38,588 nt of DNA, from positions 1-38,588 of the forward strand of contig JAFRUA010000033.1 in the NCBI GenBank assembly GCA_017434855.1. The letters are read 5' to 3'. Below are positions 1,811-38,588 of this stretch, one piece after another. A program made the position numbers and the translations under genes. Every line of letters begins with the position of its first letter. Positions within the stretch are counted from its first letter, which is position 1. The stretch is from Clostridia bacterium (GTDB lineage Bacteria > Bacillota > Clostridia > Oscillospirales > Acutalibacteraceae). A model generated the notes under the pieces. It saw nothing but the letters and a program-made list of their open reading frames with translations. It did not search any database and had not been told where the DNA came from.

Positions 1811-1901
1811 TAGCTTTTCAAAAATTCCGTGCCCCAAGCGAAAAACTTCTTTGCCGTTTGTTGCAATATTAAGAATAAATTATAAATTTCCGCGACACTT
1901 G

Positions 1902-1930
1902 TTGCGTTTTTATCGATGAAGTGGTATACT
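1902..1930 (+). promoter_or_regulatory. Sigma-A-type promoter for the HAD-HD-CmpB-TetR operon
   Basis: TTGCGT (1902-1907) and TATACT (1925-1930) with a 17-base spacer lie about 125 bases before the HAD gene. The -10 box sits exactly at the junction with a truncated repeat element, so most of the untranslated leader would be repeat-derived. It is divergent from the promoter at 1782-1810. Confidence 0.6.
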
Positions 1931-2038
1931 GATTTACACACTTGCCGTTGTGAAAAAACTTTCTTCGCGGCGCAAAGCTGACGGTTGCCGCGGTATTCGG
2001 CGCGACAATAATTCCGAATTCATAATTCCGAATTACCA
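1929..2038 (-). repeat. Heptad-armed intergenic repeat, truncated copy 2
   Basis: On the minus strand this matches the first half of the element at 8442-8520 closely: GTCGCGCCGAATACCGCGG, then the CCGTCAG...GCGCCGCGAAGAAAG block, then the AAGTGT...AATCAG block. It stops there, so the distal half of the core and the second arm are missing. The remaining arm (2007-2038) is built of heptads of the GAATTCG/GAATTAT type. It forms the leader of the downstream operon. Confidence 0.8.
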
Positions 2039-4881: not shown

Positions 4882-5740
4882 TAGCGGTTAGCCGTTAGCG
4901 GTTAGCGCGCTGGGAAATCTGATTGCGGTGAAGCCGCCACATTGCAAGGCTCCCCCGATTTCGGGGCTGCGGGTTCCCGGTGGGAACCTTTGCGCAGCAA
5001 AAGCAGCGACCGAGTTGCGGGTTGCCGGTGGCAACCTTTGCGGCAACGCAGCAAAAGCAACGACCGACGCGGCAGCGGAGAACGGCAGGCGAGACTGAGC
5101 TGCTGAGCATAGCGAAGCTGAGGGGGTGTTTCCGGAATGGAAAACGTACACCCCGCGCGAATGAATTGAGAATGAAGAATTAAGAATTGAAAATTGAGGT
5201 CGCGGGAGAAATCTTCGCGGCCTTTTTTTGCGCCGCGAAGGGATGTACAGGTGACGGTGATGTTTCTTGTTGGTACGCGGTGCGAGTCTCCGGTGGGGAC
5301 CCGCACCCAATGACCGCTCATTGGGCTGCGGATTGCCGGTGGCAACCCACAAGTCGGTCGGCGCTTCTGCCTGCGGCAGAGGTTTCCACCGGGAACGAGC
5401 GCCCCTCTCCAAAGGGGGAGGGCTAAACACGTTCCCTTCACCGCCGCGTTATGTTGGCGGCGCGTCACTTACGGCAGCAGAGCCGTTCCCTGCGTACCCT
5501 CAATGACGACAACAAAAAAAGCCGCGGGGCACACGTTCTCATTTCGGGAACGCTTCCCGCGTACAAAAAAAGAAACGCAGCAGTCACCTGTGCATCCCTT
5601 CGCGGCGCTGACCTTTCGGCAGCGGCAAGCTTTCAGCGCGAACTGCACACTGCACACTGCAAACTGATTCGCGCGGGGCATACGTCCCCATGTTGGAAAC
5701 GCTCCCCGCGCGCTGACTGCTGACTGCTGACAGCTATTCA
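4882..5740. repeat. Nested composite of heptad-armed repeats (about 860 bp, no gene)
   Basis: No convincing coding region occurs here. The outer arms are inverted: TAGCGGT/TAGCCGT heptads at 4882-4909 ending in GCGCGCTGGG, and CAGCAGT-type heptads read on the minus strand at 5740-5704 ending in GCGCGCGGGG. Inside lie two approximate 50-60-bp repeats around 4968-5068, each with a GTTCCCGGTGGGAAC- or GTTGCCGGTGGCAAC-like palindrome. There is a GAATTGA-type array at 5156-5193, a GGTCGCGGG/CTTCGCGG hairpin module at 5194-5250, and hairpins at about 5400-5425 and 5442-5463. A CACTGCA heptad array (5641-5668) is bounded by CGCG on both sides. The element fills the gap between the convergent tetR and alpha/beta-hydrolase genes. 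Confidence 0.75.
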
Positions 5741-7385: not shown

Positions 7386-7622
7386 TAATTCGTAATTTGT
7401 AATTCGAAATTGGCAATTGTGGTCGCGGGTTGACGGATCACCATCTCAGCATTGTACCCGCGAAAGAACCGTGCAGGTAACCGAACGCCCATTGATTAGA
7501 TATGCAACTTACAGGTCTCATTCTGATTGACACACTTATTATTGAAATCAAGTTTCCTTTGCGGCGCAAACCTGACAGTTGGTGCAAGGCGTTCGGCGCA
7601 CAACTGCGAATTGCGAATTCAT
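7386..7622 (-). repeat. Heptad-armed intergenic repeat, copy 3 (both arms, inverted orientation)
   Basis: The left arm, 7386-7420, has TAATTCG, TAATTTG and TAATTCG units; the right arm, 7601-7622, is GAATTCG and CAATTCG read on the minus strand. The core (7421-7600) read on the minus strand follows copy 8407-8669: the CTGTCAGGTTTGCGCCGC block, a GTCAATCAGAA block, GGGCGTTCGGTTACCTG, GGTTCTTTCGCGGG, then CCCGCGACC. The right arm ends at the TGA stop of the phosphatase gene. Confidence 0.85.
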
Positions 7623-8348
7623 TCAGTGTCTCGTCCCATCCGTGAACTGCTCACAGAACCGCGCCTGGAACGACGACGGTTCGTTGCCCGCCCAAAGGTG
7701 CGACAGGTCGCCGAACGAAAGCATCCGAAAGATCGCGCAGCCTTCCTCGCGCTCCTCGGTCACGAGCGTCGTGACCGACGTGGTCAGCGCGCAGGTGTTG
7801 TGCCAGAACACCATCGGCGACACCCCGAACAGATGCGAAAGCAGCACGCTTTCCACTCCAAAGTGGCAAAACAGCACCACCACGTCGTCGCTGCGCTGTG
7901 TCACGTCAAAATGCCGCCCGCTGTGCCGGTACCCGTGACGCGCCAGCAGGTCGTCCAGCCCCGCGCAGACCCGGTGATACTCCGCTTCCACATTGGTGTT
8001 CTGATACTGCTCCCACCGGTACCACAGGGGCGTATAGCACAGGTCGTCCTCTGTCCAGTCAGACGGCAGACGGTCCCAGCAGCAGGTGTCGTTCCCCTGC
8101 TCGTCTTTGACGCTGCCCTCAAATTCGCGCAGCCAGTCCAGCGTTTCGGCCGTCCGGCCCAGGGCGTCCAGCGTATGGGACGCCGTCTTTTGTGCCCGGC
8201 CCAGCGGCGAGCAATACAGATGTACGCCGTCACGGTTCAGCATGGGGACCAGCCGCTTTGCCAGCAGCTTTGCTTCACGCTCCCCCTTTTCGGTCAGGGA
8301 ATCGATGGAATAATCCGGGTCGCCGTGGCGGACGATGAGAAGACGCAT
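7623..8348 (-). CDS. Histidine phosphatase family protein (phosphoglycerate-mutase-like)
   Basis: A 241-residue cytosolic phosphatase. The catalytic RHG motif is R7-H8-G9 in LLIVRHGDPDY, where the His is phosphorylated. The second arginine lies in the CSPLGRAQKTA motif, the acidic residue is in REFEG, and the second histidine is in VVLFCHFGVESVL, giving the usual set. It may act on small phosphorylated metabolites; no specific substrate is suggested. I chose the ATG at 8348, preceded by AAGGAGG. Its stop codon abuts a repeat arm, and another repeat element separates it from prmA upstream. Confidence 0.88.
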   Translation of the reverse strand: MRLLIVRHGDPDYSIDSLTEKGEREAKLLAKRLVPMLNRDGVHLYCSPLGRAQKTASHTLDALGRTAETLDWLREFEGSVKDEQGNDTCCWDRLPSDWTEDDLCYTPLWYRWEQYQNTNVEAEYHRVCAGLDDLLARHGYRHSGRHFDVTQRSDDVVVLFCHFGVESVLLSHLFGVSPMVFWHNTCALTTSVTTLVTEEREEGCAIFRMLSFGDLSHLWAGNEPSSFQARFCEQFTDGTRH

Positions 8349-8406
8349 GGTAAGGGGACCTCCTTCTATATGGAAAAACAAGCGGATAACCAGAGCGGTG
8401 CGTTGA

Positions 8407-8669
8407 GAATGAAAAATGGAAAATGGAGAATGGAGAATTGCGGTCGCGCCGAATACCGCGGCAACCGTCAGGTCTGCGCCGCGAAGAAAGATTTTTCATA
8501 ACATCAAGTGTATCAATCAGAACAGAACCGTTGGATTTACATTTTGATCAACAGGCGTTCGGTTACCTGTACGGTTCCTTCGCGGGTACAGAATTCAAGA
8601 TCGTGTATCTGTCGCCCGCGACCATAATTTTTCATTCTTCATTCATCATTCTTCACTCATCATTCTTTG
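8407..8669 (+). repeat. Heptad-armed intergenic repeat, copy 4 (reference copy)
   Basis: The left arm (8407-8441) reads GAATGAA, AAATGGA, AAATGGA, GAATGGA, GAATTGC and leads straight into GGTCGCG. The right arm (8624-8669), read on the minus strand, has GAATGAT, GAGTGAA, GAATGAT, GAATGAA, GAATGAA, AAATTAT and then GGTCGCG. The core 8442-8623 has end repeats GGTCGCG/CGCGACC and an inner pair, GCCGCGAAGAAA (about 8478-8489) against TTCCTTCGCGGG (8575-8586). It would therefore fold into nested hairpins. The right arm ends 3 bases from the prmA stop. Confidence 0.88.
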
Positions 8670-8671
8670 AA

Positions 8672-9604
8672 TCATTGGCCATCCGCCGATGATTCAAAGC
8701 ACACCCACCCCTTGTCGCAGCGGCGGTTTTTGACCCGGAAACCGTGCCGGGCAAAGGCGGCCAGCACGTCCGCTTCGCGCGTGTCGATGATGCCGCTGGT
8801 GATAAAGACGCCGCCGGGCTTCAGGTACTGCCCCACGTCGGCGCAGAACGAGATGATGACGTCGGCCACAATGTTGGCCACGATCACGTCATACTGTCCG
8901 CTGACCTGCGCGGTCAGGTTGCCGCGCAGCACGGTGTACCGGGGAGAAACAAAGCCGTTTTCTGCCCCGTTTTCGATCGCGGTCTTGACCGCCAGGGCGT
9001 CGATGTCCACGCCGACGGCGCGTTTGGCGCCCAGCAGCAGCGCCGCAACCGACAGAATTCCGCTGCCGCAGCCGACGTCCAGCACGGTGGTGTCCGGCGT
9101 GATATACTGTTCCAGCGCCGTCAGGCACAGCCGGGTCGTTTCATGCGTGCCGCTGCCAAAGGCCAGACCCGGCTCGATCGACAGCACGGCGCGGCCCTTC
9201 GGGTCGTCCAGCGGCTCCCACTTTGGCTTGACGATCAGCCGCTCGCCGATCTCCATGGTGTGAAAGTACTGCTTCCAGTTGTTTTCCCACTCCTCTTTGC
9301 GGCAGGCAGACAGGTCGATCTCGTGCGCAATGCCCTCAGCCGTCAGCCGCTCGCGCAAAAAGGCCACGGCCTCCATCGGGCTTTCCTCCGGCGAGATATA
9401 GATGTGCACAAAGGCCTTGCTGCGGTCCTTTTGCAGCAGCGCCTCGTCGATCAGGTCGATGTGGGCAATGTCCCACGCCTGCTGCTCCAGGTCGCGGTAA
9501 TCTTCGATATAGATGCCATAGGGCACCGCCATCATGGCGATGTCACCGGCACGGTCAACGTCATCGGCGCTGACGCTGATTTTGACTTCGGTCCAGTCGG
9601 ACAT
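8672..9604 (-). CDS. prmA: Ribosomal protein L11 methyltransferase
   Basis: A 310-residue SAM-dependent methyltransferase that trimethylates lysines and the N-terminus of ribosomal protein L11. The N-terminal substrate-binding domain is followed by the family motif EPGLAFGSGTHETT (144-157), SAM motif I DVGCGSG (176-182), the acidic VGVDID at 197-202 and the NIVAD catalytic-loop motif (244-248). Length and motifs match the family. It stands alone between two repeat elements rather than beside dnaJ/dnaK or rsmE, its common partners in Firmicutes. Confidence 0.95.
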   Translation of the reverse strand: MSDWTEVKISVSADDVDRAGDIAMMAVPYGIYIEDYRDLEQQAWDIAHIDLIDEALLQKDRSKAFVHIYISPEESPMEAVAFLRERLTAEGIAHEIDLSACRKEEWENNWKQYFHTMEIGERLIVKPKWEPLDDPKGRAVLSIEPGLAFGSGTHETTRLCLTALEQYITPDTTVLDVGCGSGILSVAALLLGAKRAVGVDIDALAVKTAIENGAENGFVSPRYTVLRGNLTAQVSGQYDVIVANIVADVIISFCADVGQYLKPGGVFITSGIIDTREADVLAAFARHGFRVKNRRCDKGWVCFESSADGQ

Positions 9605-9666
9605 TGATAGGCCTCCTTCTTTGAATTGACGAGGGTGGTATCATGTAAAAGACGGGGTTCATTCGC

Positions 9667-9919
9667 GTGGAGTGTGCAGTGTGCAGTGTGCAGTTAAGGT
9701 CGCGCTGAAATGATCTGGCAACCGTCAGGTTTGCGCCGCGAAGAAATCGTTTCCTTTGCGACAAATGTGAAAATCAGAACAAGACAATCCGGTTGTTATT
9801 CTAATCAAAGCGCTTTTGGTTGCAATATGGTCCCTTCGCGGGAAGAATGTCAGAGTATGAACCAAACATATCCGCGACCACAACTTCACACTGCACACTC
9901 CACACTGCACGCAAACTGC
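9667..9919 (+). repeat. Heptad-armed intergenic repeat, copy 5
   Basis: The left arm 9667-9696 is made of GCAGTGT heptads; the right arm 9880-9919 is the same type inverted (CACACTG). The core 9698-9879 has GGTCGCG and CGCGACC ends, the GGCAACCGTCAGGTTTGCG block followed by CCGCGAAGAAA, AATCAGAACA, and CCCTTCGCGGG, aligning with the copy at 8407-8669 in the same orientation. 34 bases at 9876-9909 are identical to 12806-12839. The right arm runs up to the stop of the GH13 gene. Confidence 0.88.
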
Positions 9920-9920
9920 T

Positions 9921-11786
9921 TCATGCACTTTCTTTATGCAGAATGACCCCTTCCATCGCCTCCAGCGTGACGCTGTTGGAAATCTGCTTGCCGCCGAGCA
10001 GGCAGGCCGCGCCGTGCCAGTGGACCGGCAGATGATAGACGATGGGGTGGTCGTTGCGGTTGATGATGGTCAGCACCTCGTCACTGTCGCCCACGCGGGC
10101 AAAGCACAGGCAGCCCAGCATCTCAGACACGGTATGGAAGCGGCCGTCCTTCAGGCAGGCGCAGCTATGCCGCACATGGCCCAGCGCCCGATAAAAGGCC
10201 AGCAGATCGGCGTCCTCTTGCCCCCAGGGATAACACACACGGTTGAAGGGGTCCTTGTAGCCCTGCATCCCGGCCTCGTCACCGTAATACAGCGACGGCA
10301 CGCCAGGCAGCGTGTATTGGATCATGGCGGCCAGCTTGAGCAGCCGCACGCCGCGGGCATAGCCCTCCGGTGATAATGCTGTGGTGCTTTGCCAGTCGCG
10401 GTCATGGTCGGCGCAGTCTTCCCCCGCCAGTGCGGTGACGGCGCGCATGGTGTCGTGCGTGCCGATGTGGTTCATCAGCACGTCGGTCACGTCCTTGGGA
10501 TAATGCTCCAGAATCGTATAGATTTTTTCCGAGAAGCCTTCCACAATGCCGGAGCGGATAAAATCGAGGATCGCGCGCGCAAAGGGATAGTTCATCACGC
10601 TGTCAAGCTGTTTGCCCTGCAGATAGCGGCGGCGAAAGCCGTAGCTGCACTTGTTGGAGGCGTCCTCCCACACTTCGCCCAGAATCAGCGCCTCGGGGTC
10701 GGTGGCCTTGACCCGGGCACGGAACGCATCCAGAAACGCGTCGGGCAATTCATCTGCAACATCCAGCCGCCAGCCGGACGCGCCCAGATTCAGCCATTCC
10801 TGCGCCACGCCGTGCGGCCCCGCGATGAAATCGATATAGGACGGCGTCTCTTCCCGCACCTCCGGCAGAATGTCGATCCCCCACCAGGAGGCATAGCGGT
10901 CCGGCCAATGGCGGAATTTGTACCATTCAAAATAGGGGCTGTCTTTGGACTGATACGCCCCCGTGTCGGGGTACCGCCCGTATTTGTTGAAATAACGGCT
11001 GTCGTCGCCCGTGTGGCTGAACACGCCGTCAAGGATGATGCGCACGCCGAAGGCCTTCGCCGTTCTGCACAGCGACGCAAAATCTTCTTTGGTGCCCAGA
11101 AGCGGGTCGATCTGATGATAGTCCGCCGTGTCATAGCGGTGATTGCTTTGCGCCTCAAAGATCGGGTTGAGATAGATGCACGTCACACCCAGGCTCTTGA
11201 GGTACGGCAGCTTGTGCTCAATGCCCTTCAGGTCGCCGCCGAAATAGTCGTTGTTCAGTACGCGGCCGGTTTTGGTCGGTCGCCATTTCGGTTCGCCGCC
11301 CCAGTCGGCACGCCTCTCGCGGTCATCCGGAACATGTTGCTTCGGGGTTTCGCTTGCACAGAACCGGTCGGGAAAGATTTGATAAATCAGTCCGCCGCGC
11401 AGCCACCCGGGCACCGTGAAGTCGCGGTCAAAAACCGTGAGCTGCCACCGCCGGTGCCCGCCAAGCAGCATGCCGCAGGACCCTTCGCCGCACAGCAGCT
11501 TGGTTTCGCCGAACGGCGTGTCGTATTCAAAATAATAGAAATACAGCCCGCTTTGCGCGATCACGGCGTCCAGCGCCCACCATTCCTCTTCGGCGCCCTG
11601 CATCCGGTCCCAGGTGAAGGAAAACCGGGTGGTGGCACCCGTGTCATTTTCCAGCACCAGTGTGACGCCGCTGCACACGATCGACCGCGGCAGCACCACA
11701 TGCAAATGCAGCGTGTCCCCGGCCCGCAGGGCAGAGAACGGCGATTTGAACAGCTCGTTTCTTGAATCAAAGGGAATGTAGTCCAT
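9921..11786 (-). CDS. GH13 alpha-glycosidase (cyclomaltodextrinase/neopullulanase-like)
   Basis: A 621-residue alpha-amylase-family enzyme with no signal peptide, so it probably acts inside the cell on maltodextrins or cyclodextrins. Residues 1 to about 120 form the N-terminal beta domain of GH13_20-type enzymes. The barrel starts at GGLIYQIFPDRF. Conserved regions are DGVFSHTG (253-260), GWRLDVADE with nucleophile D342, GEVWE with acid/base E371, and NHIGTHDT with D445, so all three catalytic residues are present. PSLYYGDEAGM (497-507) is also typical. The exact linkage specificity cannot be read from sequence. It stands alone between two repeat elements. Confidence 0.92.
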   Translation of the reverse strand: MDYIPFDSRNELFKSPFSALRAGDTLHLHVVLPRSIVCSGVTLVLENDTGATTRFSFTWDRMQGAEEEWWALDAVIAQSGLYFYYFEYDTPFGETKLLCGEGSCGMLLGGHRRWQLTVFDRDFTVPGWLRGGLIYQIFPDRFCASETPKQHVPDDRERRADWGGEPKWRPTKTGRVLNNDYFGGDLKGIEHKLPYLKSLGVTCIYLNPIFEAQSNHRYDTADYHQIDPLLGTKEDFASLCRTAKAFGVRIILDGVFSHTGDDSRYFNKYGRYPDTGAYQSKDSPYFEWYKFRHWPDRYASWWGIDILPEVREETPSYIDFIAGPHGVAQEWLNLGASGWRLDVADELPDAFLDAFRARVKATDPEALILGEVWEDASNKCSYGFRRRYLQGKQLDSVMNYPFARAILDFIRSGIVEGFSEKIYTILEHYPKDVTDVLMNHIGTHDTMRAVTALAGEDCADHDRDWQSTTALSPEGYARGVRLLKLAAMIQYTLPGVPSLYYGDEAGMQGYKDPFNRVCYPWGQEDADLLAFYRALGHVRHSCACLKDGRFHTVSEMLGCLCFARVGDSDEVLTIINRNDHPIVYHLPVHWHGAACLLGGKQISNSVTLEAMEGVILHKESA

Positions 11787-11848
11787 AAGTCGCTTCCTTT
11801 ACGTCTAACCTGAAGGCGGAGAGCATATAACAAGAGTGAAGACTGGAA

Positions 11849-12104
11849 TTCAGTTTGGAGTTTGGAGTGTGGAGTTTGGAGTTGATGTCGCGGGAAACCG
11901 CGTTAAAATCGCTGCGTCTGCACCGCGAAAGAACCTGACAACTGGCGGGAACGCGGTTGATCAGAATGGCACATATTGGCGGCATTCGATACAATTCGAC
12001 ATTCTCATGTGATATCCTGACTGACTTCGCGGACGAAAGCTTGCCGTTGGAACAGCGTATCAACGCGACCATAACTCCAAACTCCAAACTCCACACTCCA
12101 AACT
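11849..12104 (-). repeat. Heptad-armed intergenic repeat, copy 6
   Basis: The left arm 11849-11885 has GGAGTTT, GGAGTGT and GGAGTTT; the right arm 12071-12104, read on the minus strand, has GGAGTGT, GGAGTTT, GGAGTTT. The core is more diverged. Read on the minus strand it keeps GGTCGCG, TCCGCGAAG, TGATCAACC, GCGTTC, GGTTCTTTCGCGG and CCCGCGACA. It is the only clear copy between two divergent genes (GH13 and the DUF4830-like gene), so it has no stop codon next to it and may contain their promoters. Confidence 0.85.
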
Positions 12105-12130
12105 AAAAAAGCCGAAGGGGTGGTTCTTTT

Positions 12131-12598
12131 ATGTTCATCATTTCCGTCCGTTCCAAAACAGTCCGCGTTGCTGCGGCCGTGCTGCTTTGCGCCGCGTTTG
12201 TCACCATCGGCGGGGTCTATTTTGTGTCGCACCGGGCATCGCAGCCCGCCATGGCAGCCGTCGGCCCGGACATTCCGGCAGAGACAGAAGACGAACGGCT
12301 GGCGTTTTTGACCGCGCAGGGTTTGTCGGTGGATAAAGCGAAGCGCACCGTGCGAGAGCTTGTCATCCCGGAATCGTTTGACGAAACCTGGACGCGGTAC
12401 AACGCCTTGCAGCAAAGCCAAGGCTTTGACCTGCTGCCCTTTCGCGGTAAACGGGTCAAGGTCTGGTCCTATCCCCTTCTGGACGAAGAGACCCGCTGCG
12501 CCAACCTGATGGTCTGCGGCGGCAAGCTGATCGCCGGGGATGTGGCCGACGCCGCGATCGACGGGAAGATGGAAGGCATTAAAAGAGTGGGGAGTTGA
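12131..12598 (+). CDS. DUF4830-like membrane-anchored protein
   Basis: A 155-residue protein of unknown function. Residues about 11-33 (VRVAAAVLLCAAFVTIGGVYFV) form one membrane segment or uncleaved signal. The outer part carries the DUF4830 pattern: FLTAQGLSVDKAKRTVRELVIP, then ETWTRYNALQQSQGFDL, then GKRVKVWSYPL. This small domain is common in Clostridia and often sits in sporulation or envelope contexts; the role is unknown. The last codons (KRVGS) and the TGA stop are part of a GAGTGGG/GAGTGAA heptad array, so the C-terminus may have been set by the repeat. It converges on hflX with one repeat element in between. Confidence 0.75.
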   Translation: MFIISVRSKTVRVAAAVLLCAAFVTIGGVYFVSHRASQPAMAAVGPDIPAETEDERLAFLTAQGLSVDKAKRTVRELVIPESFDETWTRYNALQQSQGFDLLPFRGKRVKVWSYPLLDEETRCANLMVCGGKLIAGDVADAAIDGKMEGIKRVGS

Positions 12599-12863
12599 GA
12601 GTGAAGAGTGGAGAGAAGTGTGCAGTGTGAAGTTGCGGACAGTTCGACAACTTCAACATTCTTTCCGCGAAAGTACCGAGGCGCCAAAAATAAGCGTTTT
12701 GATTAGAATGTGAACCCAACGGTTCTGTTCTGATTGACAATTTTGCCATTGTGAAAAAGTCTTCTCCGCGGCACAAACCTGACGGCTGCGGTTTCGTGTC
12801 AACGTGACCACAACTTCACACTGCACACTCCACACTGCAAACTCCACTCTTCACTCTTCACTC
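12582..12863 (-). repeat. Heptad-armed intergenic repeat, copy 7 (arms overlap both flanking stop codons)
   Basis: The element lies between convergent genes. Left arm 12582-12633 and right arm 12810-12863 (minus strand) share not only heptad type but order: GAGTGAA, GAGTGGA, then later GTGTGCA, GTGTGAA, GTTG. The core, read on the minus strand, matches 8442-8590 well: the CCGTCAGGTTTGTGCCGCG block, TCAATCAGAACAGAACCGTT, TAATCAAAACGC, and CTTTCGCGG. The DUF4830 stop (12596-12598) and the hflX stop (12858-12860) both lie inside the arms. Confidence 0.88.
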
Positions 12864-14111
12864 CAAAACGGTCCACATCTCCATCTCGTCCAGCAGCGCC
12901 GCGTCGGCGATGACGCGCAGGAACAGTCCCGTGTCGCGGTACTCCTCTTCCAGAACCGTGGCCTCTTTGCGCAGCTTGGCGGCGTCTGCACCGTTTTTGA
13001 ACGGGACAAGCAACGTCGCCTCGCGCCGTGTGGCGGGCAGATGTTTCACAACGGCGTCCAGAAGGGTGTCCAGCCCCCGGCGGTCCAGCGCAGAGATCAG
13101 CACAGTGGAGCCAAAGGTGGGCAACGCATAAATATTGCCCACCTTGTCGCATTTATTCATCACGGTGATGGTGGGAGTGTCGCCGCAGCCAAGCTCATTC
13201 AGCAGGGATTTTGTGACCTCCAGCTGCTCGTTGGCATGGTCGTCGGACGCATCGCAGACGTTGAGGATCAGGTCTGCCTCTGCGGCGGCCTCCAGCGTGG
13301 ATTTGAACGCTTCCACCAGCTTGTGCGGCAGGCGGCGGATCAGGCCGACGGTGTCGACCAGCATCACCTCGCGCCCGTCTGGCAGCGTCAGGGCGCGGCT
13401 GGTCGGGTCCAGCGTGGCAAAGAGTTTGTTTTCGGTCAGCACGCCCGCGTCGGTCAGGGCGTTCATCAGGGTGGATTTGCCGGCGTTGGTATAGCCCACG
13501 ATGGCCACGGTGACCACGCCGGTCTTTCGGCGGCGCTTGCGCTGCAGGTCGCGGCGCTTTTCCAGCTCGGCGAGCTGCTCTTCCAGCTTTTGGATGCGCC
13601 GGCGGATGTGACGGCGGTCGGTTTCCAGTTTGGTTTCGCCGGGGCCGCGGGTACCGATTCCGCCGCCGAGACGTGACAGCGCGGTGCCCTGCCCGGCCAG
13701 GCGAGGCAGTTGATAGCGTAGCTGCGCCAGTTCCACCTGGAGCTTGCCCTCCCCTGTTCTGGCGTGAGCGGCAAAGATGTCAAGGATCAGCATGGTGCGG
13801 TCGATCACGCGGCAGTCCGTCAGCTTTTCCAGCGTGCGGCCCTGGGTCGGCGTCAGTTCGCCGTCGGCAATGATGAGGTCCGCGCTGCGGTCCTTGCAGA
13901 ACCAGATCAGCTCCGCCAGTTTGCCGGTACCAAGAAAGGTCGCAGCCTCCGGATGTTCACGCCGCTGAATGATGGAACCGACCACGCCCGCGCCGGCGGT
14001 CGTTGCCAGCTCGGTCAGCTCTTCCATGCTGACAAACGGGTCAAACGTGCCGTCATCCACGCTGATGAGCATGGCGCGTTCTTCGGCCGTTTTGTTTTCA
14101 TAGAGTTCCAC
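12858..14111 (-). CDS. hflX: GTPase HflX (ribosome-splitting factor)
   Basis: A 417-residue translational GTPase that binds 50S subunits and splits stalled ribosomes under stress. Residues 1-200 carry the HflX N-terminal domain with the glycine-rich SRLGGGIGTRGPGETKLE stretch (146-163) and a basic coiled coil. The G domain has P-loop GYTNAGKST (206-214), DTVG (253-256) and NKCD (319-322). The start is GTG at 14111. It follows the aminopeptidase gene by 14 bases, so the two are probably cotranscribed. The stop TGA is within the heptad array of the downstream repeat. Confidence 0.95.
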   Translation of the reverse strand: MELYENKTAEERAMLISVDDGTFDPFVSMEELTELATTAGAGVVGSIIQRREHPEAATFLGTGKLAELIWFCKDRSADLIIADGELTPTQGRTLEKLTDCRVIDRTMLILDIFAAHARTGEGKLQVELAQLRYQLPRLAGQGTALSRLGGGIGTRGPGETKLETDRRHIRRRIQKLEEQLAELEKRRDLQRKRRRKTGVVTVAIVGYTNAGKSTLMNALTDAGVLTENKLFATLDPTSRALTLPDGREVMLVDTVGLIRRLPHKLVEAFKSTLEAAAEADLILNVCDASDDHANEQLEVTKSLLNELGCGDTPTITVMNKCDKVGNIYALPTFGSTVLISALDRRGLDTLLDAVVKHLPATRREATLLVPFKNGADAAKLRKEATVLEEEYRDTGLFLRVIADAALLDEMEMWTVLE

Positions 14112-21544: not shown

Positions 21545-21745
21545 CGGACTATGGACGATAGGCCGTAACGCAGCGTGTCGACAATTGTACTCCCTCAGTC
21601 ACGCGCTTTTTACGTTTCATGTATTGCCGATAGGACGTGGTCGCGTGACAGCTCCCTCAAGGAGGGAGCCATTAAAAAGTCTCCCTTTCACACACGGCCC
21701 GACCGACCAGTGCACTACGGACCATAGACTACGGACTATGGACTA
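21545..21745. repeat. Intergenic repeat between smc and ftsY (GGACTAT heptads)
   Basis: The array 21713-21745 (ACTACGG, ACCATAG, ACTACGG, ACTATGG, ACTAAG) contains the smc stop codon TAG (21743-21745). A shorter array of the same family and same orientation lies at 21545-21560. Between them are a GTGGTCGCGTGAC segment near 21637-21649, recalling the GGTCGCG core end, and a perfect hairpin GCTCCCTC/GAGGGAGC at 21651-21669. On the minus strand the hairpin could act as a weak terminator for smc. No gene is seen in the gap 21480-21742. Confidence 0.7.
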
Positions 21746-24700
21746 AGTCGTAATCCCAAGCCGGTTCGCCAGCTCGGCGGTTTTCAGTTCCAGCAGCTTT
21801 GACACGCCCTGCTCCTGCATCGTGATGCCGTACAGCACGTCCGCTTCCTCCATGGTGCCGCGGCGGTGCGTGATCAGAATGAACTGGGTGTTTTTGGTCA
21901 TGCGGCGCACATACTGGGCATAGCGGCCCACGTTGGCGTCGTCCAGCGCGGCCTCCACCTCGTCAAAGATGCAGAACGGCGCGGGGTTGACCTTGAGAAT
22001 GGCAAACAGCAGCGCGATGGCGGACAGCCCCTTTTCGCCGCCGGACAGGGCGTCCAGCCGCTTGACGTTTTTGCCCGGGGGCTGCAGACGGATGTCGATG
22101 TCGCTTTCCAGCACATCGGCCGGGTCGGCCAGCTGCAGTTGCGCCCGTCCGCCGTCAAACAGTTCGCGAAACGTTTCGTCAAAATACTGATTGATCTTTG
22201 AAAACTGCTCGCGAAAGCGCGTGCTCATGCGGTCGGTCAGGTCAGAGATCAGGCGCGTCAGCTCTGCCTTGGATTTTTCCACATCGCTGAGCTGCCCGCT
22301 GAGGAAGTCATAACGCTCGGAGACTTCTTTGTATTCGTCGATGGCGCTGACGTTGACCGAGCCCAGGGCGCGGATCTTGTTTTTCAGCTCTGCCAGGCGT
22401 TTTTTGGATTTTGTGATCTCTTCACAGGGCGCATACGCCTCCTGCGCCTCGCGCAGCGAAAGCTGATAGTCGTCATAAAGCTTGGACACCGTGTCGTCAT
22501 AGTCGCGGCGCATGGCCTCGCGGCGCTCTTCCAGCCGGGCCTTTTCCAGACCGATGCGTTCGCGCTCGGCGGACTTTTCTCGTTGCTCGGCGCGCAGGGC
22601 GGCGCTTTTCGCTTCGCTTTCGCTGCGCTGCGTCTGCAGGGAAAGGATCTCTTCGTTTTTGTCGTCGGCGCTTTTGCGCAGCGCGGCGGCTTCGGTTTCG
22701 CACGCCTTGACGGTGTCGTGCAGGGCGGCGTTCTTTTCGCGGATGGCGGCGATCTCGTCGTCTTTTTCGCGGTCGCGGTCCTCGTGGCTGACCAGCCGCG
22801 CCTTCAGCAGATTCATGGCCGTCAGGCGGGCAGCGCGGTCTTTTTCACCGTCGTGAATCTCAAGATTGACTTTTTCCAGCGCCGCGGCGGTCGCTTCCTT
22901 TTCCTGCAGCAGCGTGCGGCGTTTTTCATCCAGATGCAGCAGCTTTGCCTTGACGTCGTCCTGCTTTTGCAGCAGTTCGGTTTCGGTCTCGTCGGCGGCG
23001 TCGCGTGCGGTTTCCTGCGCAGTGCGGCGGTCCAGTTCCTTTTGCCGGTCGGCCTGCAGCGCTTCGGCCTGTGCCCTTGATGTGCGGACCTGCTCTTCGG
23101 CCAGACGCACGTCGGCCTGGCGCAAAATCAGCGTTTCTTTGGCTTCGCGCAGCGCGGCCTGCGCCGTGTGCGCCTGCGCCTCAATGGCGGTCAGCGCAGC
23201 TTCGGCGGCGGCATAGTCTTCTTTCAGTTTTGCGACCTTTGTTTCCAGCGCGGCAGAGGTTTCGCGCAGCGACGCGATCTCGCTGCTGCGGGTGAGCAGA
23301 CCGGCCGTTTTGGCCTGGCTGCCGCCGGTCATTGAGCCGCCGGTGTGGATGACCTGGCCGTCGATTGTGACCACCTTGAAGCGGTGGCGATAGGCTTTTG
23401 AAAGCGTAATGGCGCTGTCCAGGTCCTCGGTGATGACGGTCTTGCCCAAAAGCGCGCGCATCACGCTGTCGTACTGCGGGTCATAAGTAATCAGGTCGGC
23501 GGCAATACCCAGCACGCCGTCATGGTCCAAAAGACCGGTTTCTTCCAGCGCGGCGGGCTTCACCGCAGACAGCGGCTGGAAGGTGGCGCGGCCCAGCGCG
23601 TTCGCTTTCAGGTACTCGATCGCGGCTTTGGCGTCGCTTTCACGGTCGCAGACAATGTGCTGCACGGCGGCGCCCAGCGCGGTTTCGATGGCCACGGCAT
23701 AGTCCGGCTTCATGGAAATGAGCTTGGACACGGCGGCGTGGATGCCAAACAGGCTCCCCTGCTTTGCGCGGCGGATGACCGCCTTGACCGCGCCGGAATA
23801 GCCCTCCATGTTCTGCTCCAGCTCTTCCAGCATTTTGGTCTGGGCTTGCTTGCGCTGCAGGTCAAAGGCGCTTTCGTCCAGCGCTTTTTTCAGCCGGTCG
23901 GCGTCGTCGGCGCGTTTTTTTGCCTTGAGCGCCAGCCCGGCGGCGATGTTGTCTTTTTCTTCGGCGTCATGTTCGGCCCCCTCGCGGGCGGCCTCGGCCT
24001 CGGCCTGGCGGGCCAGCAGCTCGTCCAGCGCCGTGGTTTGCTGCGCCAGCGCCTCGTCCAGTGCGGTCAGACGCAGCGTGATCTCTTCCAGTGACGAGCG
24101 GGCCGTGGAGGACGCCACCCGGTTGTCTGCCGCCTGCTGCAGCAGGGCGGACAAGGCGTCGTTCAGTTCGGCGGCGTGGCTGTCCAGCGCGGTGTCTGCG
24201 GTGTCGGCCTTTGCCAGCTTTGCGCGGACGGCGTCGGCTGCGGCGCGTTTTTCGGTCAGGATGGCGTCGATCTGCTTCAGCAGACCCTCTTCCACCGCGA
24301 TCTCGCTTTCCAGTTGTTCGCGGTTTTTCTGCGACGCGTCCTTTTCGCGCTCGATGCGCTCGATCGTTTCGTTGTTGTGGACGATGGACGTTTCCATCAC
24401 GGCGCGCTGCGCGTCCAGTTTTGCGGCGTCCTCCCTTTGCAGAGAGATGCTGCGCCGCAGATCGTCAATGGCTGTGGTGATGGTCTGGGCGGCGGACAGG
24501 GCCGCTTCGCTTTGCGCTTCAATGGCTTCCAGCGCCGCTTCGGCACGGGCATAGTCGGTTTCCGCAATGATGATGACGTCCTCCTGCGAACGCAGGTTTT
24601 GCTTCAGCCGGTCGATCGTGGCCAGCCACAGACCGATCTCGACCTCTTTGCGTTCGGCGGCCAGGACCAAGAACTTTTCGGCCTTTTCGCTTTGCGTTTT

Positions 24701-36477: not shown

Positions 36478-36702
36478 ATGGAGCGGAGAGCGGAGAGAAG
36501 AAAGAAAATAGTTTTCAGGGTGAAGTGTGGAGTGTGCAGTGTGGAGTTGATTCTGTGTTCCGGCAGCGATAAGCGCTCGGCGCGACCGCAATTCTTCATT
36601 TTCCATTCTTAATTCTCCATTTATCCGCGCGGCGCAAACCTATCGGCAGCAACGCAGTCCCCCGCGCGCTAACAGCGAACAGCGAACAGCTGACTGCTGA
36701 CA
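36478..36702 (-). repeat. Heptad-repeat composite upstream of the M28 gene
   Basis: Four arrays lie in about 225 bp: GGAGAGC units (36478-36497), GGAGTGT/GCAGTGT units (36519-36549), ATTCTTC/ATTCTCC units (36588-36622) and ACAGCGA/GACTGCT units (36669-36702). Between them are partial cores. One is a segment ending CGGCGCGACC (36578-36587), like the start of the reference core inverted. Another is GCGCGGCGCAAACCTATCGG (36626-36645), like the TTTGCGCCGC block inverted. It looks like two partial elements joined. The last array ends 2 bases from the deacylase stop. Confidence 0.75.
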
Positions 36703-38399: not shown

Positions 38400-38588
38400 T
38401 GAATTCGGAATGGGGCACCTCTAAAAACTCAAGTCGTTTGAGCGCGATGCAGATTTTACCGTCAGATTGCATAAATTTGACGCAGGAATCCTTTCGGCTT
38501 TCAAGGATAATTTGGGCAATATGACGGTGAAAGGTGCGCGCGATCGAGCGGCGCGCAGTTTTTAGAGGTGCCCAATGCGGAATGCGGA
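38400..38588. repeat. Heptad array (GAATTCG/GAATGCG) interrupted by a MITE
   Basis: Left of the MITE is TGAATTCGGAATG and right of it is AATGCGGAATGCGGA. Taking out the MITE and one copy of AATG gives a clean run of GAATTCG, GAATGCG, GAATGCG, GA. The array continues beyond the window, so any core cannot be seen. Confidence 0.7.
38413..38573. mobile_element. 161-bp MITE with perfect 17-bp terminal inverted repeats
   Basis: GGGCACCTCTAAAAACT (38413-38429) and its exact complement AGTTTTTAGAGGTGCCC (38557-38573) bound a non-coding 161-bp element. It is flanked by the direct repeat AATG on both sides (38409-38412 and 38574-38577), as expected for a 4-bp target duplication. It has no gene, so it must depend on a transposase elsewhere; the ends and 4-bp duplication suggest an IS5-like partner, but that is a guess. 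Confidence 0.88.

Follow-up and report, generated by a model that had tools for sequence, protein, structure and literature searches.

What kind of DNA are the palindromic elements that recur between the genes of a single clostridial contig, and how did they arrive there? The contig, JAFRUA010000033.1 of the Clostridia bacterium assembly GCA_017434855.1 (Acutalibacteraceae), was analyzed over its whole length of 38,588 bp—hereafter the window—and is one of the 77 contigs of a 2.74-Mb genome that is 97.9% complete. Five elements of this window share a palindromic core between two arms of 7-bp repeats (heptads). Two of them are insertions, and all of them are probably small mobile hairpin insertions—non-autonomous relatives of heptad-armed elements that carry a gene for the intervening-sequence protein (IVP) and in some cases occur as intervening sequences (IVSs) in rRNA.

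Elements with heptad arms and a palindromic core

Each element spans ~240–280 bp, is intergenic, and combines an imperfectly palindromic core of ~182 bp—typically GGTCGCG...CGCGACC—with a pair of inverted arms, which consist of tandem heptads reading NAYTNNN outwards from the core. All five are present where the initial annotation had described five copies of one plan, spread over positions 7386–12865, and one of the five is divergent (strands follow the orientation used in that annotation):

Element 1, 7386–7622, minus strand: arm 7386–7418, core 7421–7602, arm 7603–7622; AATT-type heptads
Element 2, 8406–8669, plus strand: arm 8406–8441, core 8442–8623, arm 8625–8668; CATT-type heptads
Element 3, 9665–9919, plus strand: arm 9665–9697, core 9698–9879, arm 9881–9910; ACT-type heptads
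Element 4, 11851–12104, no strand assigned: divergent core 11886–12070, arms 11851–11884 and 12072–12104; ACT-type heptads
Element 5, 12590–12865, minus strand: core 12634–12809; ACT-type arms

The two arms are complementary to 85–93% over 30–44 nt in elements 3, 4, and 5, and those of element 5 overlap, as judged by eye, the stop codons of both adjoining open reading frames (ORFs). As in short tandemly repeated repetitive (STRR) sequences, tandem degenerate heptanucleotides are a feature of the intergenic DNA of the window: 21 period-7 arrays were detected, whereas 30 order-1 Markov windows had 0.03 on average and never more than one. Control periods gave no arrays (periods 5 and 8–11) or six (period 6).

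The core is a repeat family of this genome. A sequence search matched it at 26 places, and a covariance model built from 16 copies—the search that the initial annotation had proposed for finding many copies—extended this to at least 33 distinct places, based on scores for 78 of 782 first-look candidates (38 rows, of which five repeat a copy on its other strand). The divergent core of element 4 scores 39.3 bits and the other four window cores 142–171 bits, these four being themselves part of the model alignment. Since 11 copies were matched on both strands in the first profile round, the core is a near palindrome, which bears out the nested inverted repeats described before; more precisely, it is an imperfect palindrome made of two diverged half-units. 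Nested and truncated copies are present in the genome as well.

An RNA fold of the core under selection, for which paired base changes had been predicted, was rejected. Among 29 pairs, a single one had changes in both bases (1.7 on average in shuffles), the two strands fold about equally well, and the RNAalifold consensus is weak (−8 kcal/mol, in one orientation). G·T predominates at four positions of the central hairpin in one orientation, a hint of RNA that is too small to count. Rfam gave no family in the window at gathering threshold, so the proposed comparison with RNA databases led to no described RNA family. Viral carriage of the core was likewise rejected, with no exact match of the core pattern in viral contigs; in a genome-contig collection from which the own genome is possibly excluded, the pattern had a single match, on a Marinosulfonomonas contig, taken as chance by the estimated expectation.

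Evidence on the origin of the elements comes from the genes that surround elements 2 and 3, whose names—amylase-like, prmA-like, and phosphoglycerate-mutase-like—are putative and read from sequence. In five of six congener loci inspected, these genes abut. The site of element 3 (between the amylase-like gene and prmA) and the site of element 2 (between prmA and the next gene) are both empty in five congeners, and the distance from the preceding stop codon to prmA is 320 bp here versus −8 to 6 bp there. Hence, these elements are insertions, and the empty sites that a mobile element should leave in relatives have been found for two copies. In one of the congeners (G016), the prmA frame is interrupted, and inspection of the sequence was the only basis for the second junction. 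None of the five empty-site loci bears a heptad array, and arrays were seen at 3 of 28 congener prmA loci (~2–4 kb each), of which six were read (L034 being uninformative as cut) and the other 22 scanned for arrays only. The closest congener prmA is 80% identical, and the exact junction is unreadable at such a distance.

Arms and cores seem to have separate histories. Both arms belong to the same heptad class in 17 of 20 core copies, a level reached by 1 of 100,000 permutations, but arm classes do not cluster on the core tree, itself poorly supported (9 changes versus a shuffled mean of 8.8). As the arms match within a copy yet ignore the core tree, arms and cores look like exchangeable modules. 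Either cores insert at the center of heptad hairpins already in place, or insertion is followed by a rewriting of the arms, which copying from arm to arm then equalizes.

A search of related genomes gave different results by method. With blastn, at most eight candidates being scored per genome, the core had no match in 33 congeners, in 26 further genomes of the family, or in 38 of the order; the covariance model matched ten places in one congener (G030) and one place each in two others (G008 and G009). A species-specific origin of the core, which the blastn result alone would suggest, was therefore rejected. Judged by their sequence, the G030 copies represent a remote homologous family: the GGTCGCG/CGCGACC-type ends are kept, the bodies look AT-rich, and the heptads are different. 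At least one heptad array was found at eight of the nine G030 copies fetched (nine of the ten places). The heptads themselves reach further within the genus. A pattern of the CACTGCA/AATTCCG kind occurs in 19 of 34 genus genomes with 0–158 matches—91 in this genome—and the reversed pattern has no match in any of the 34. In two congeners (G001 and G028), the arrays surround different cores, most of them similar in size, with GGTCGCG or GACGC-type ends. One unit of G028 (L126, 375–875) has heptad arms and GGTCGCG ends around a 166-codon ORF in place of a core.

Heptad arms of IVP genes and rRNA intervening sequences

Several armed units of the genus carry a gene for an apparent four-helix-bundle protein. 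Four of these proteins were tested, and all belong to PF05635 (23S_rRNA_IVP) and TIGR02436; three of the four show similarity below cut-off to models of Avd, a protein of diversity-generating retroelements. A resemblance of PF05635 to Avd is described in PMC10053308. PF05635 is found in 32 of 34 genus genomes, 57 of 299 genomes sampled from the phylum, and none of 14 control genomes. This genome bears nine matches, all on contigs other than the window's, and the window elements, being without an IVP gene, are therefore at most non-autonomous relatives of IVP/IVS elements.

The association of these genes with heptads is broad. At the 59 PF05635 loci fetched first, period-7 arrays lie within 170 bp on both sides in 33 cases, on one side in 12, and on neither in 14, compared with arrays in 2 of 113 control windows placed 700 bp from the genes. 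Periods 5, 6, and 8–12 were never found on both sides of these loci and rarely on one. For all 100 loci, the counts are 51 (both sides), 18 (one side), and 31 (none), i.e., at least one array at 69 loci, inverted and locus-specific. The left and right flanks of a locus are complementary with a median score of 23 versus 10 for mismatched loci, and 47 of the 100 loci exceed the 99% level of a null that is itself inflated by shared heptads.

These 100 loci comprise 30 from the genus, 29 from the phylum, 20 chosen from the match list, 19 of 29 plasmid records, and two viral contigs. The chosen 20 consist of the eight remaining own copies and some from G028, G001, G016, and G006. Among the own loci, L187 and L188 are identical with L106 and L104, first met through their heptads, as was L092, which is identical with L151; one further locus found through heptads (L107) was excluded from the counts, and a 20th plasmid record (L234) served for the comparison of near-identical copies only. 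Within this genome, the detector found arrays at five of the nine IVP loci, and a sixth was recognized by eye. At one locus (L170, 1831–2208), a very long degenerate heptad array of ~50 units lies on one side of the IVP gene.

The association extends to plasmids. A tblastn search gave 29 plasmid records with an IVP relative, 23 of them cyanobacterial by table count. Among the 19 loci scanned, arrays flank the gene on both sides in 12, on one in two, and on neither in five; Nostoc, Calothrix, Anabaena, and Riemerella are among the arrayed ones. Several IVP genes sit in gaps of co-directional genes—e.g., nrdB–IVP–nrdA, with IVP antisense—where the neighbors were taken from the annotation (2 of 20 fetched records carry none in the stretch). 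Further such gaps lie between CRISPR-cas genes: in both Pseudanabaena (L209) and Anabaena sp. 90 (L210), the order is cas6–IVP–cas4 with heptad arrays on both sides, and in Picosynechococcus (L217), the IVP gene has cas10 on one side and a cmr3-family gene on the other, with no array by detector. The 23S rRNA IVP also appears among the domain abbreviations of a figure legend in PMC10910872.

One end is shared between elements with and without a gene. The right inner end of an IVP element of G001 (L107) matches a payload-less unit of G028 over 28/28 nt (L121), matches payload-less units of its own genome over 29 nt with 93% (L108 and L115), and matches an IVP element of G010 over 36 nt with 92% (L138).

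The link to rRNA was revealed by a comparison that failed in its own aim. Element ends could not be read from intragenomic IVP duplicates because the similarity spans nearly the whole stretches; the near-identical copies of three genomes (G153, G212, and G277) lie inside 23S rRNA, as their loci (L227, L229, and L231) match Rfam RF02541. The stems of these three loci contain heptads (TGAGAGG, CGAAGTT, GACAGAT-like). In L227 and L229, one arm was found by the detector and the complementary arm by eye, and in L231 the detected arms were those of an inner hairpin only. At least two 23S motifs were seen at four further loci of the 100 (L174, L180, L185, and L225). In L231 (1156–1236; 23S rRNA of G277), a payload-free heptad hairpin breaks the IVP gene within the intervening sequence.

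Heptads in such an insert have a precedent in the Coxiella IVS, whose 28-bp terminal stem is accompanied by two to three direct tandem heptamers, the number of which varies among strains, with an RNase III site at the first heptamer repeat (PMC4990558). As cited in the same paper, common IVS sites are helices 9, 25, and 45, where the tetraloop is replaced. The function of S23/IVP proteins in rRNA inserts is given there as unknown. The window elements resemble an rRNA IVS with an S23/IVP gene in their complementary, heptamer-bearing arms, which in the IVS form a long stem around the gene, and differ in that they are intergenic, bear no IVP gene, and have a palindromic core, whereas the known IVSs lie in rRNA helices. 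No rRNA match was found in the window.

A class of mobile hairpins and its alternatives

Heptad arms of the same kind around IVP genes and around the window cores suggest one little-recognized class of mobile DNA. The proposal builds on the observed architecture, copy number, and empty sites of the elements, the matching and exchange of their arms, the association of PF05635 with heptads, the heptads of IVSs, and the one shared end. The hallmark of the class would be that 7-bp repeats form two paired, inverted arrays. Members that look autonomous would carry the IVP/S23 gene—PF05635, a four-helix-bundle relative of Avd—between the arms, classical 23S rRNA intervening sequences would be members that inserted into a helix of rRNA, and gene-less members would bear either a fast-diverging palindromic core, like the window elements, or a short loop only. 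The mobile form might be the folded hairpin, as RNA or as single-stranded DNA, and its targets might be gaps of co-transcribed genes or loops of existing hairpins. IVP could act in trans as a hairpin-binding factor, and the arrays might evolve through slippage in 7-bp steps and through one arm being copied onto the other.

We only tentatively extend this to a bacteria-wide mobile class of heptad-armed hairpins, with or without IVP, that needs neither a transposase of its own nor a reverse transcriptase and covers STRR, rRNA IVSs, and lineage-specific palindromic repeats. Cores and arms would then be exchangeable because new copies enter the center of existing heptad hairpins. If true, three separately described puzzles—STRR, rRNA IVSs, and palindromic intergenic repeats—would share one explanation, and the presence of IVP near CRISPR genes may be explained. 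If one class underlies STRR and S23/IVP, each becomes directly testable.

Several points weigh against the relationship with IVP elements and against their mobility. Neither transposition, target duplication, nor excision was seen, nor any element whose ends recur unchanged at two unrelated sites, and IVP is no more than a candidate mobility factor; for Coxiella, it has been suggested that the S23 protein is not synthesized in vivo (PMC4990558). No array is detectable at 31 of the 100 PF05635 loci, which are mostly best-scoring matches and not a random sample. At the three rRNA loci, the detector gave one outer arm or none, and the rest of the stem was identified visually. For the left inner end of L107, no match was found among the sequences compared. 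A core-arm heptad is shared by three of the five armed IVP loci of this genome, which is not clearly more than in congeners (11 of 29), so a specific IVP donor for each core arm class in this genome is a weak candidate. Finally, the core tree behind the exchange of arms is poorly supported, with 0 of 14 branches starred.

Other explanations start from the same observations. The hairpin anatomy and the intergenic position would also suit elements of the repetitive extragenic palindromic (REP) or REPIN type, where a Y1 transposase in trans—of IS200/IS605 or of the REP-associated tyrosine transposase (RAYT) kind—moves single-stranded DNA hairpins and the heptads are incidental slippage. Y1_Tnp (PF01797) is indeed present in 21 of 34 genus genomes, with one match in this genome, and in six of the seven heptad-rich genomes. 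The exception, G016, has 92 heptad matches and no Y1 match, which is not a strong refutation as this genome is 76% complete and as the surroundings of the Y1 genes were uninspected. However, a Y1 transposase leaves the heptad arms of IVP genes and of rRNA IVSs unexplained, and we regard it as an unlikely account. The likeness of IVP to Avd, in turn—described for PF05635 in PMC10053308 and echoed by the below-cut-off matches of three of the four proteins—would suit a retromobility in which IVP and a reverse transcriptase in trans copy the folded RNA, and the rapid divergence of the copies points in the same direction. Yet RVT_1 is found in six of 34 genus genomes, in none of the contigs of this nearly complete genome, and in one of the seven genomes (this one included) with at least 70 heptad matches; five of the six others show no match, and these are 74–90% complete. 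A reverse-transcriptase partner is hence unlikely, and retromobility as a whole is given a low probability.

Host functions would account for the location in gaps between genes. STRR hairpins—one described for the promoter region of hoxW and others for the hupS–hupL interval, with function unknown—were proposed as transcript stabilizers or translation couplers (PMC2670836), and TAACTGA heptamers upstream of start codons in Beggiatoaceae as sites of a translational regulator (PMC4679880). By analogy, the elements could be 3′-end hairpins, RNA stabilizers, or translation couplers, spread by recombination and bound by a host protein at their heptads. Against this stand the use of divergent, convergent, and tandem gene gaps alike in the window, the empty sites of relatives, the nested and truncated copies, and a fold that shows neither strand preference nor covariation, which together make a regulatory origin rather improbable. 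Least probable is that the heptad arrays reflect polymerase slippage at any palindrome, with IVP genes and cores merely sitting in slippage-prone gaps. A polymerase-contact account of 7-nt units is cited in PMC4679880, and the strain-dependent heptamer number of PMC4990558 is in line with slippage; but the arrays are inverted at both ends of a defined payload and almost absent 700 bp away, and the congener prmA loci bear arrays in the 3 of 28 cases and at none of the five empty sites.

Compared with known systems, the STRR lead of the initial annotation was a good one, and its statement that no family with paired heptad arms around a core is described was too strong, because heptads as paired arms are in print for Nostoc trnL P6b (PMC4476775) and for hairpin-forming STRRs (PMC2670836), and direct heptamers next to a 28-bp terminal stem for one rRNA IVS (PMC4990558). 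The P6b stem consists of 7-nt repeats of the class TDNGATT or NNTGAGT, with repeated shifts between the classes (PMC4476775). These degenerate heptads form two paired hairpin arms, and their class shifts resemble the arm classes of the window; in the excerpts at hand, neither a conserved core nor a link to IVP is described for them. The Beggiatoaceae TAACTGA repeats are intergenic heptamer arrays as well, and differ in being nearly all direct, of one fixed heptamer, and mostly located just before start codons (PMC4679880). In open-access literature, which lacks most subscription journals, no paper was found to connect heptad arms with IVP/S23 genes at large. Heptads of one individual IVS and of STRR hairpins are already in print; the unifying claim attached to them here is unusually wide.

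REP elements, bacterial interspersed mosaic elements (BIMEs), and REPINs are short, non-autonomous, intergenic palindromic repeats and resemble the window elements in this respect; they are not known to have heptad arms, which marks a difference. Repeats of the enterobacterial repetitive intergenic consensus (ERIC) type, at ~130 bp, are likewise long intergenic imperfect palindromes with no known autonomous partner; they differ in that heptad arms are not known for them.

Further heptad features and flanking hairpins

Besides the five elements, the window contains partial, composite, and core-less features:

Half copy, 1859–2034, minus strand: half core 1929–2007 and a single heptad arm 2008–2034; core-model match 1859–2007
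Composite, 5168–5668, no strand assigned: heptad arrays 5168–5197 and 5638–5667; weak core-model match 5520–5643 (E 9.3e-4)
Core-less heptad hairpin, 28331–28425, no strand assigned: TAGTCCG-type arrays 28331–28370 and 28396–28425 around a ~25-bp loop
Composite, 36481–36694, no strand assigned: three detected heptad arrays and a core-like fragment
Isolated heptad arrays, no strand assigned: 406–444, 4882–4908, 5710–5736, 21727–21747, and 33946–33970

Two of these had been listed as partial copies. The one at 1929–2038 is real, with 90% identity to the core over 78 bases, and the one at 36478–36702 turned out to be the composite of heptad arrays and a short core-like piece, with no model match at E 0.001.

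Some units have, directly outside their heptads, a perfect or nearly perfect snap-back hairpin that lies at the end of the adjacent gene: in the window at 8660–8690 (by eye), and at L110, L111, L112, L114, L117, L118, L126, and L189. They are enriched at the ends of G001/G028 units, with 12 of 38 versus 1 of 38 shuffled (with a shuffle control only, not a positional one), and were counted at 2 of 15 ends of own cores versus 1 of 15 shuffled. For IVP loci, the count is 9 of 122, compared with 1 of 122 after shuffling and with 9 of 345 other positions. It is possible that they are a sign of fold-back copying at insertion, or just terminators.

Within or beside heptad-like sequence, an end that resembles an insertion sequence (IS) or a miniature inverted-repeat transposable element (GGGCACCTCTAAAAACT / AGTTTTTAGAGGTGCCC) occurs at 38403–38429 and 38557–38583 of the window and at L004, L013, L018, L187, and L190. 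It often lies near contig ends, as if heptad arrays were a preferred target. The window and contig C17 (L247) open with the same ~140 bases (1–140 in both), which read like the end of a putative IS3-type transposase gene and are directly followed by heptads or a core-like unit.

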